Shown here: in pieces, positions 55,192-59,397 of the stretch
How positions within the stretch are numbered: the first letter of the stretch is position 1
Layout: every line of letters begins with the position of its first letter
Assembly (NCBI GenBank): GCA_964030475.1
Contig: CAXIPT010000003.1
Span: 8,224,515-8,288,514, forward strand
Origin: Tethya wilhelma
Lineage: Eukaryota > Porifera > Demospongiae > Tethyida > Tethyidae
Direction of reading: 5' to 3'
Length of the DNA: 64,000 nucleotides
Position numbers and translations under genes: made by a program
Notes under the pieces: model-generated
What the model saw: only the letters and a program-made list of their open reading frames with translations
Told to the model about the DNA's origin: nothing
Database searches by the model: none

Positions 55192-55461
55192 NTTGAACTC
55201 CAAAAGTAATTCTTATATGGGTATTTTATAGCTAGTTGCCATCTTTATAAGTGCATGCTAAATTGAGAAGAATAATACAACTCTCTTCCTTTTTATGATT
55301 GAATTTGGGTAGATTCCCAGCAGGAAGAAGTGGTCTTGCAGTTATTTGATACAGTTAGTTTAAAAAGCTATAATTATCATAAACGTGCTCTGAATCAAAA
55401 GTGATAGTCCTACATCTCTGTAGTCTGTAGTCTAGCTCTAGTATCAAATCTTGCATCCAAA

Positions 55462-56518
55462 ATGAGGAGTCCTAGAGTACTAGTGGTGTTAAGCTGCTGC
55501 TTACTGGCATCAATTTTGGCAAGTATCACTCCACAGGGTAAGCTTACTATAGTCCACATTTATATGGATTGATATGCACTACAAAGTAAGAATTAACCTT
55601 CAAAACAATACATTAGCTGTAGGCCAAGGTGCTGGTGAAGTAGTAGAATGCTTTACAGACAACAATTGTCTTGATCCTGATGGTGATGCTGTTGTCATGT
55701 CCATCAATGATGTCTCAGAGGCTGAAGAAACCTGTTGCAGTGATCTGACCATCTTCACCTATCGACTGGAGGGTAACGAGGGATGTAGCATGTGTCCAGA
55801 AGGTAAGCTGACATCGGCATCATTATCTGACCTGTGAGACTATATTTATAAGGTCATATCACACAAATGCAGTAGTTATGTTTGTGCAGTACATACTGTC
55901 TCGATTCCTGCAGCGCTAGCCTAGGGTTAGTTGTCCAACTGCATGTGTGTGTATGTCTAGTTTGATCAACAGTATCAAAGTGGCTTCAACCTTGAACACT
56001 GAAGCCACCTGGAGTGACTGACTGTTGTATTGAAACACTAAAATGAATCAGTTCAATGCATGCTATACTAAGGATGCAGCTGGATGTCTTATTATTGTAG
56101 GAAAACCACCTACTATCCATTGACCAAACATGGGATACTGAAACTGAGTGATTCAATTGAATCAGTATCCTACACACACACACACTGTACCAAAGGTCGT
56201 ACCACCATGCCACCTGCAACAACTGAAGCAACAACTACACAGGCCACAACTGCACAGACCACTCAAGAAGAAACCACCATCTCAGTCCCAACAGAACCTC
56301 CCACCACTGCAGCAGCTACACAAAGTGAAGGAACCACTGCCACAGCTGCCACTGCCGCGGGGATAGAGGCCGAGGGAGACGGGGAACAGTCAACGGGAAG
56401 CGGGTCAAAGTGCGGGGGTGGGTGTATTGCTGGCATCGTGGTTGGTGTTGTGGTGGTCAGTGCAGTTGTCATTGGAGCAGTGGTTGCAGGAGCTGTAGCG
56501 TACTCCCTAAGACGATAA
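55462..56518 (+). CDS. Small mucin-like type I membrane protein
   Basis: Three exons join in frame: 55462-55537, 55617-55802 and 56196-56518 (about 194 residues). Exon 1 encodes a signal peptide (MRSPRVLVVLSCCLLASILA). Exon 2 encodes a Cys-containing ectodomain (VECFTDNNCLDPDGD, ETCCSDLTIF, EGCSMCPEG) with about seven cysteines. Exon 3 encodes a Thr-rich stalk (PPATTEATTTQATTAQTTQ and similar) suited to O-glycosylation, a KCGGGC motif, a Gly/Val/Ala-rich membrane helix with GxxxG spacing (IAGIVVGVVVVSAVVIGAVV) and a five-residue tail YSLRR. No known family is recognised; the tail is too short for signalling. The 56118-56172 intron stretch holds a short palindrome. Convergent with the gene at 57062-57709. 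Confidence 0.75.
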
Positions 56519-56880
56519 CTAGCACTCATTATAGTGATGGAAAAAATTCACAACTCCAGTGTACGAATTACAGTTTTTATTTCGTGCATACTTTGTATTA
56601 TCATTGCAACCTTGTGTGTATTTTACATTGTGTTATATATGTTCTTTAAACAAACCTATTCCCACCTGTTTGTGATACAATAAGGAAACAGAGTGATAAC
56701 AACTGTTCCCAAGAAAGATTGCTGGCAAACAGAGTAGGAGTAAGTGTACTTGTGTACAGTAACAGGTCATTAGTCCATAGCAAACATGAAGATAAGAACA
56801 CAAATCAAACAACATGACAGTACAGTCAACAAGAGATGTATGTGCAACAAGCTAGAAGATATCTCTCACACAATAATTAT

Positions 56881-56945
56881 TAATATCCTCAGACCAGATA
56901 AGGAAAAAAAGGATTTCTTTAAACCTGGTCATCATGGTTGCAGAG
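56881..56945 (-). promoter_or_regulatory. Candidate SECIS element in the 3' UTR
   Basis: On the minus strand, 117-181 nt after the stop: AACC ATGAT, then GACCAGGTTT, AAAG, a loop with TTTTTTT, TATCTGGTC, then TGAG. GACCAG pairs with CTGGTC and extends by G-U and U-A pairs. ATGA (56935-56932) and TGAG (56891-56888) sit at the helix base as the SECIS quartet requires, and AAA follows the 10-nt strand as in SECIS apical loops. Helix I is weak by eye. Confidence 0.6.
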
Positions 56946-57061
56946 AAGATAAAACAGCTTGATAATAAAATACCATGCAATAAAAAGGTGGATTTATGTA
57001 CACAACAAATAAAAAGTATGTTATTCTGTGAACAGTCGGGAGCTGAAATCAAACTGTCTCT

Positions 57062-57709
57062 CTAGATGAGCACACATACAGACTCTGACCTCACAACCTG
57101 TTCTGCTGGTTTTCCACTAGCAACATCTTTCACAACTTTCACAATCTAAACAAAAAAATGATAAAGAACACATGATGGCACAGAGAGAGAGAGAGAGAGA
57201 GATGAAACTAGTGCGGTAAACTCACCGCCTGTGGGTCAGGAAATGCTCCCCTCTCTCTCTTGGAGTACACCAGCTGTCCATTCACCACCACCTCATAGTC
57301 CCCTGGTTTAGTGACCTTGCCCGTTACCATGACACTGGGCACTGCTTCCTTCAGTCGCTGAGCCAGGTCATAGTACCTGGGGGCGTAGCCTCATCCACCA
57401 CTGGGAGTGTGTGTGTGTCACAGTGTGGTGTATAGAATTGTGTAAGCCATTAATATTTATATATAGACTACCATATTAAAATGAAGTTGACGGGGTTCAA
57501 TTTAAAGTGTTTGTAGAAATACTGATTGCTCATTTCAGTCAAATTGAACTATTCAATTTGGCCCTGTTGATACACACTGTGAGATACACAACTGAGCCAA
57601 CTCATGATAAGTTGAATTTCTGGCACTGAAAGCACACACATGCTTGGGCCTGGAAACTTTAATCTGTCTCTTACCAGTAGGATACTTCCACTTGGACTCC
57701 ACCGCTCAT
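57062..57709 (-). CDS. MIEN1: MIEN1-like selenoprotein of the SelW/Rdx family (in-frame TGA = Sec)
   Basis: Three exons: 57709-57675, 57400-57226 and 57145-57062, 97 residues if the TGA at 57393-57391 is read as selenocysteine (residue 15). The start MSGGVQVEVSYC runs into GG-TGA-GYAPRYYDL, giving a Cys-Gly-Gly-Sec redox motif at the usual beta1-alpha1 loop of the thioredoxin-like SelW/Rdx fold. Next come VTKPGDYEVVVNGQLVYSKR and GAFPDPQAIVKVVKDVASGK, matching MIEN1 ([20 protein letters not shown]). The C terminus is CVLI, a CaaX prenylation box like CVIL of human MIEN1, which has Cys-x-x-Cys instead of Sec. Human MIEN1 is a membrane-anchored protein linked to cell migration. Both flanking splices preserve the frame around the TGA, and homology continues for 80 residues beyond it. 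A SECIS-like hairpin follows. Divergent from the zinc-finger exon; 3' end convergent with the mucin-like gene. Confidence 0.85.
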
Positions 57710-57769
57710 GATCAGCTGCTGTGTCAAATCTTATCACCTCACTTGAGAGAGTAAAGGTAGGCAAGGATA

Positions 57770-57897
57770 AAGTTCAATATTAGTTATAGTTCGAATAATT
57801 TGAAAATTTTTTTATACGGTACGGAAGGACAACACGCGCGTGCGCGCGCGTTGCCGGCTAGCTGTTGTCAAATTATTCGAACACGTAATATTGAAAT
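57770..57897. repeat. Palindrome with alternating CG core
   Basis: TTCAATATTA...TTCGAATAATTTGA at the left mirrors TCAAATTATTCGAA...TAATATTGAA at the right. The centre is CACGCGCGTGCGCGCGCG, alternating purine-pyrimidine sequence with Z-DNA potential. Lies just 5' of the MIEN1-like gene, in the divergent intergenic region. Confidence 0.7.
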
Positions 57898-58092
57898 TTA
57901 TTTTATTTTTGCAAAGCTAAAAGAAGGCAAGAATCAGATCTGCAGCTGTCTGATTTTGACCATCGACACTCACTAGTGAACCTTTTGAAAGGTAAGGAGA
58001 GAGTTTTATGTGTATTAATAGAATATGCTTCCTGATAGTATAAAAATACAATTTTCTGCATAGCCTCTTAAAAGAAAATTTAAACGTACACC

Positions 58093-58312
58093 ATGGCACA
58101 CACTGAGTGCAGCATGTCCAAGTACGACAGTCTTCTCCAGCCGCTGCAGTGTGAGTGGGTGAGCTCTCTCACGGGGCTGGCCTGTGGAGAGGCGTTCACC
58201 AGTGTAGCTGACCTCACCTCCCACGTCCAGCTGGTCCATCTCTCCCCCTCCTCCCCCCTCGGTGACCCCCACTGCCCCCTGGGCCCCCTCACTGAGGGGG
58301 GAGCCTGTCAGT
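58093..58312 (+). CDS. C2H2 zinc-finger protein exon, GLI/ZIC-like first finger (partial)
   Basis: From an ATG in a strong context (caccATGG) the frame reads SKYDSLLQPLQCEWV, then ACGEAFTSVADLTSHVQLVH. The spacing C-x-W-x(8)-C-x3-F-x5-L-x2-H-x4-H resembles the atypical first finger of GLI, GLIS and ZIC transcription factors. Base composition is strikingly GC- and C-rich compared with the surroundings. The exon is cut at a single N (58313), after which comes an unrelated palindromic element, so the remaining fingers are missing. The ATG may be the true start or merely internal. Confidence 0.55.
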
Positions 58313-58313: not shown

Positions 58314-58441
58314 TTCAATCTGACAACCATTCCTATCTTGTTTGCTCACTTTTTTACGATTTGACCATTCCTATGTTTGCATTACATTTCTAATGTTTTT
58401 TGTACTTGCATAGTACATAGGAAAATTTTCAAAAAATAAGT

Positions 58442-58766
58442 GGTGTAGGAATGGGCAGTGCTGTAAAAAGTATTGGAACAAGTCATGTATCAATTTCGGG
58501 CACATGACTAGTTCATTTTCATTTTTGATTTCTCAATTATTGTCGTAAATGGTTCCAGAATTATCTGTAAATGAAGTTTATCAGCTGAGCAACAGTATCA
58601 TATACTATTGGTTCAAATTCCTGCCAATCTTACCACTTGGCTAAATAGTAGAATAAAGTATAGCAGGTAGGATTAGATTACACTGGCCAAGACTTGAACA
58701 CAAAAAAAATGAATTGAGACATGCCTTGTTCCAATACTTTTTACAGCACTGCCCATTCCTACACTG
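58442..58766. mobile_element. TIR element, GTGTAGGAATGGGCAGTGC termini
   Basis: Third copy of the element at 40881-41200; TGTAGGAATGGGCAGTGCTG at the left mirrors CAGCACTGCCCATTCCTACA at the right. Flanking sequence to about 59300 is also repeated near 40320-40620. Confidence 0.75.
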
Positions 58767-59397
58767 CTTATTTTTTGAAAATTTTTCCTACTTGTTCATC
58801 ACTTTTTTCAACACTAAAAGTGTGAAGACTGTTAGAGACTGGTTAGTCCCTACAAAAAGCTTGAGTAGCAGCTACATACATTGCAATACTAGAGTAACTA
58901 ATGCACATGCATGTTCAATGCCACGTGGATAGATAATGAATGACCTTTGAACTCTACCTACAGGAAGATTGCTACATTGAAGTACATGAATTTATAAGCT
59001 AAGTTTCAAAGCTTTCTAATTTTTGTTTAGGCTTATTTGTGATGAAAACGAGTATCAAGGAACGCAGTTCCCCTGAAACAGACTTACTGTACCTAGTGCT
59101 GTCAATGTTGGCTCCACACTTTCTGGTTCTCTGGAAAAAACGTGTTCAAGTAAGTCAGTTAGTAAGTACGTACGTTAGAACAAAAATAGCACTATTGTGG
59201 CTTCCCACTAGCACTCTCTACGAGTTCCCAGTAAAGTTTCTGTGAGCTTCAGGCCTTGTACGCTTTATGGTGATAAACAATTTGTATTGGGTCTATGAGA
59301 CATGGGGCCCATTCCTACTATATGTACTACCGTACAAATGATATACAAGATGACCTTTACTGAAAATCTGAGGTATATTATTTCAACAATATGGTAA

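Follow-up and report, generated by a model that had tools for sequence, protein, structure and literature searches.

A predicted selenoprotein of the SelW2/MIEN1 branch with a CaaX end in a sponge genome

Does an in-frame TGA in a small sponge gene end the protein, or does it encode selenocysteine (Sec) at the heart of a redox motif, and to which branch of the Rdx family does such a gene belong? We addressed these questions at one locus within a 64-kb stretch of DNA (64,000 nucleotides, hereafter the window). A preliminary description had placed a Sec-using homologue of MIEN1 at 57062..57709. These coordinates are exact, and the gene lies on the minus strand. Its three coding exons (57709-57675, 57400-57226, and 57145-57062) join to give 97 codons followed by the stop codon TAG. 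The joined translation consists of MSGGVQVEVSYCGG, the in-frame TGA, and GYAPRYYDLAQRLKEAVPSVMVTGKVTKPGDYEVVVNGQLVYSKRERGAFPDPQAIVKVVKDVASGKPAEQVVRSESVCVLI, after which TAG ends the frame. If the TGA were read as a stop, the product would have 14 residues. The features of the locus are as follows.

57675..57709, minus strand: coding exon 1, encoding MSGGVQVEVSY and the first two bases of a Cys codon; the second gene copy on contig C2 has the same exon
57401..57674, minus strand: intron 1, phase 2 (GTAAGA...CCCAG), which interrupts the codon for the first Cys of CxxU
57226..57400, minus strand: coding exon 2, (C)GGUGYAPRYY...PDPQA
57391..57393, minus strand: TGA in frame as codon 15, predicted to encode selenocysteine (YCGG-TGA-GYAPRYY)
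57146..57225, minus strand: intron 2 (GTGAGT...TTTAG)
57062..57145, minus strand: coding exon 3, IVKVVKDVASGKPAEQVVRSESVCVLI and then the stop TAG
57065..57076, minus strand: CaaX box CVLI, the C-terminal motif and a predicted prenylation site
56889..56935, minus strand: SECIS-like element, ATGA - 11 nt - AA - 28 nt - GA, with 8 of 9 helix pairs, 126 nt past the stop
56576..56581, minus strand: AATAAA, candidate poly(A) signal, 480 nt past the stop
55193..58312, no strand assigned: duplicated segment of 3.1 kb, 85% identical to contig C2:11159892-11163073 and carrying the second gene copy

Two other elements lie near the gene. On the plus strand, a 103-residue open frame (56207-56521) is convergent with the Sec gene and falls inside the duplicated segment. 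It has a Thr-rich part, then a Gly/Val hydrophobic segment and an SLRR end, and resembles the C-terminus of a membrane mucin. At 58413-59258 there is a dispersed repeat, found in at least 25 places at 85-89% identity. The repeat has 74-nt inverted arms (58422-58495 and 58712-58785), and is perhaps a non-autonomous DNA transposon.

The product is a member of the Rdx family. With Cys typed at the TGA position for profile and sequence searches, it scored 66.1 bits against Pfam Rdx (PF10262; curated cut-off 22.6) and 68.6 bits against TIGR02174, the CXXU SelT/SelW/SelH family (cut-off 34.2). The CxxC/CxxU redox motif that follows the first strand in this family is present as CGG-TGA. Eight PDB sequences matched at E values of 1 or less, led by human MIEN1 (2LJK, E 8.8e-18), with mouse SelW (2NPB) second. 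In this comparison of few sequences, human MIEN1 scores 66.7-67.6 bits, against 35.6-36.9 for mouse SelW. The alignment to human MIEN1 spans 94 columns with no gap, crosses the TGA, and reaches the CaaX box. Identity is 31/94 to MIEN1 (counting the Cys typed at the Sec site) and 24/66 to SelW. Over residues 6-71 it is the same for both, at 24/66, and in the tail (residues 72-96) 5 of 25 positions are identical to MIEN1, with a CaaX box ending both proteins. Thus, it is similarity, the gapless alignment, and the tail that favour MIEN1. These results bear out the proposed homology to MIEN1, as well as the proposed CaaX end, CVLI, which we read at 57076-57065; human MIEN1 ends in CVIL.

The gene could instead be an ordinary selenoprotein W (SelW1), lying outside the MIEN1/SelW2 branch. 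The equal identity over residues 6-71 allows this, and a CxxU/C motif is common to both branches. We nonetheless regard it as improbable, since the scores favour MIEN1, the gapless MIEN1 alignment extends to the CaaX end, and a separate SelW1 gene is found in the same genome. The latter gene, at contig C1:13939209, reads MPVKVKVVYCGG-TGA-GYGSRY..., with its TGA in CGG-TGA-GY, as in the MIEN1-like gene. Its intron, too, falls within the Cys codon that intron 1 splits in that gene. The two differ in that SelW1 carries the SelW-type insert E-TP--TG in mid-domain, which the MIEN1-like gene is without. They differ as well in their preferences: over the 60 residues read, the sponge SelW1 scores 53.0 bits against mouse SelW and 18.1 against human MIEN1. 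In a small tree it groups with mouse SelW at a support of 94/92, slightly under the tool's mark of 95, and the MIEN1-like gene falls outside this pair. Hence it is the SelW1 gene on C1, and not the MIEN1-like gene, that has vertebrate SelW as its best match. Human MIEN1 sits on a long branch of unresolved position, so its grouping with the sponge gene cannot be read from the tree alone. We infer that the split between SelW1 and the MIEN1 branch predates the divergence of this animal from vertebrates, and that each branch has a Sec form.

Searching the genome with Pfam Rdx returned the two copies of the MIEN1-like gene over the cut-off and two weak matches, one of which (L003) reads as a SelT exon on the opposite strand. 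The idea that the genome has a sole SelW-like gene was dropped, as TIGR02174 showed SelT and SelW1 exons.

The TGA is conserved in a diverged second copy of the gene. The copy on contig C2 keeps the reading frame, the splice sites, and the TGA, and differs from the window gene at seven codons, five of them synonymously. After the TGA, there are four synonymous changes over 60.3 sites and one nonsynonymous change over 185.7 sites (dN/dS 0.078, Fisher p 0.013; few changes, with sites treated as independent). On the same assumption, the one nonsynonymous change in about 186 sites past the TGA stands against 29 changes in 343 intron sites (p 4e-5). This pattern, read from the two sequences, indicates that the TGA is maintained; a dead tail would not show it.

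TGA is a stop by default, and the one in this gene could be a nonsense mutation in a decaying gene or pseudogene, the protein ending at codon 14. This is very unlikely, because two diverged copies share the TGA and an unbroken downstream frame, purifying selection persists past the TGA, and the position is the Sec site of the family. Gene conversion of exon 2 alone would have to end at the exon borders, with intron 2 differing between the copies at 7 of 80 sites as well as by gaps. The initial doubt that the TGA is a nonsense mutation was thus well placed, as was the claim that coding remains intact from the TGA to the CaaX box, given the MIEN1 alignment, the C2 copy, and the selection downstream. 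Removal of the TGA by splicing, for example through the in-frame acceptor AG at offset 24 nt in exon 2, to give a Sec-free protein, is hardly credible, since it would lose the CGGUGYAP redox motif, whereas the canonical acceptor CCCAG/TGG preserves the family motif and is kept in the copy, and the genome's own SelW1 gene has the same junction.

Bacterial relatives also have a TGA at this site. Among 163 pattern matches obtained with a Cys-typed query, we confirmed eight loci as relatives, and all eight, all on contigs of Chloroflexota metagenome-assembled genomes (MAGs), have an in-frame TGA at the aligned CxxU place (context YCAV-TGA-H). These sequences are distant and are used here for the TGA site only. 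Seven of them entered the tree; the eighth (L038) was left out because of a second stop. The loci (L031-L038) appear to be bacterial SelW-like selenoproteins of uniform type. Among viral contigs, 43 pattern matches contained no relatives.

The sponge genome encodes other components and users of Sec. The tRNA-Sec family has six matches; the best (72.5 bits) is a tRNA-Sec gene whose anticodon is TCA, and two of the other five were examined and are tRNA-Ser according to ARAGORN. This family also matches in every one of 14 control genomes, and in five of them the score exceeds the cut-off. SepSecS gives six matches, all on one contig. TGA codons stand at the Sec site in a GPx gene (VASA-TGA-GLT), in two MsrB1 genes (SRF-TGA-I), in Sep15 (CS-TGA-KLGR), and in two SelT copies (S-TGA-GYRKVF); these positions we take to be the Sec sites of the human proteins. 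The Sep15 codon lies in a weak exon match of 16.5 bits, just upstream of a match over the cut-off. The MsrB1 genes (L019 and L020; contig C1, ~12506334 and ~12509172) are on opposite strands within 3 kb, and the SelT genes (L045 and L046) lie near each other on contig C5, at ~4970292 and ~4976360.

Exons of the selD family are present on contig C12; they score below the curated cut-off, and we read no Sec site there. A TGA before one selD-family exon sequence (L029) was considered as a Sec site and rejected, as it reads as an intron end, TTGACAG. On contig C1, an uninterrupted frame of 361 residues (L027, 2843943-2844815) scores 86.3 bits against selD, short of the cut-off. With no apparent introns and a bacteria-like character, it may be a foreign gene or a related kinase.

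A SECIS-like element follows the gene. The published search pattern for SECIS elements (PMC2375036) is NTGA-AA-GA with distances of 10-13 and 15-39. The key parts are described in PMC3316567 as GA/GA together with two unpaired bases, mostly AA. The core is present downstream of the stop, and its spacings of 11 and 28 fall inside the published ranges. Counting both strands, the 64-kb window contains the pattern with eight of nine pairs two times, one of them being this element, and 20 Markov-simulated windows contain it a mean of 0.85 times. By arithmetic from the simulated rate, the chance of finding it in a given 400-nt single-strand stretch is well under 1%. Compared with shuffled sequences, the hairpin is only mildly more stable (z -1.85 when flanks are included and -1.14 when they are not). 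An energy-ranked scan of the window gave 18 matches with this element sixth, and all five better folders begin with GTGA. Scanning used folding with the apical adenines held unpaired. Free folding pairs these adenines, and for this reason a free-fold scan missed the element, which was found once they were held unpaired. No SECIS family was listed by Rfam at the element, at E values up to 10, with 1.3 kb and 111 bases searched.

In the C2 copy, the corresponding element (L001, locus 1987-2032) keeps the core, with one helix pair broken (7/9). It folds no better than shuffles (z -0.86 and +0.54) and was not found by the energy-ranked scan. As it is one helix pair short, Sec insertion in the second copy may be weaker. 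At four other Sec-gene loci (GPx L015 and L016, MsrB1 L020, and Sep15 L021), neither scan gave a convincing SECIS; each returned two matches in L015, close to the coding exon, and there was one match in L020. The sensitivity of the scans is thus unproven. We consider it probable, though not proven, that the hairpin past the stop is a SECIS.

Taken with the second copy and the Sec genes of the genome, this element supports the preliminary assignment of Sec to the TGA at the CxxU site as the best reading. On sequence evidence, the TGA is almost certainly a selenocysteine codon. The gene very likely encodes a small selenoprotein of the Rdx family, on the SelW2/MIEN1 branch, in which the TGA would be read as Sec through a 3' UTR hairpin and the CVLI end would probably be prenylated.

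A Sec form in this family has been described before. Mariotti et al. 2012 (PMC3316567) describe the SelW2 of bony fishes, frog, and elephant shark as a selenoprotein; mammals have a remote homologue, Rdx12, with a Cys aligned to the Sec. A 2019 review lists RDX12 as an alternative name for MIEN1 (PMC6738349). The selenoproteomes of planarian and Schistosoma likewise include genes named SelW2, Trichoplax has one (PMC3828610), and such genes are named in Ciona (PMC2874816). A survey of the sponge Amphimedon reports one SelW among 22 selenoproteins (PMC3473315). The preliminary description took the Sec form of MIEN1 to be undescribed; this claim fails, since the published SelW2 is a Sec relative of Rdx12/MIEN1.

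The SelW2 (SELENOW2) described from fish, frog, elephant shark, and several invertebrates has Sec at CxxU and belongs to the Rdx fold family, as predicted here. This likeness rests on published descriptions. The words "caax" and "prenyl" are absent from the main text of PMC3316567, PMC2375036, PMC2874816, and PMC3828610. Among the literature matches listed, a scope that mostly excludes subscription papers, there is no lipid-anchored or prenylated selenoprotein of this kind. The sequence adds two observations: the Sec form has a CaaX end, and the same genome carries a distinct SelW1 gene. Human MIEN1 (Rdx12, C17orf37; PDB 2LJK) shares with the sponge gene the ungapped alignment and the CaaX end. 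It differs in having Cys at the redox site (CEPC) where the sponge has TGA/Sec (CGGU), in ending CVIL and not CVLI, and in its longer N-terminus.

The proposed mechanism is as follows. The gene product would be a small, thioredoxin-like selenoprotein of the Rdx family and its SelW2/MIEN1 branch. Codon 15, TGA, would be decoded as Sec by tRNA-Sec, with the SECIS-like hairpin in the 3' UTR directing insertion. This would yield a CGGU site, presumably redox-active, where human MIEN1 has CxxC. The CVLI end would then probably be prenylated, as its motif suggests. A geranylgeranyl group is likelier than a farnesyl group by analogy with human CVIL, which is reported as geranylgeranylated in the 2019 review (PMC6738349). 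Such an anchor would hold the redox domain at a membrane.

This arrangement may be ancestral. We lean towards a MIEN1 ancestor that was a prenylated selenoprotein, with Sec and the CaaX end in place before this animal and vertebrates split and SelW1 already separate. The Cys of mammals would then reflect a later loss of Sec.

The SelW2/MIEN1 family itself is not new. Interest in MIEN1 centres on its part in cancer cell migration, while little is understood of what its redox motif does. That a second animal has a Sec form ending in a similar CaaX box speaks for membrane-bound redox chemistry as the old function. Annotation of such genomes should read the TGA of this gene as Sec, and the sponge form offers a natural variant for testing the redox function of MIEN1.
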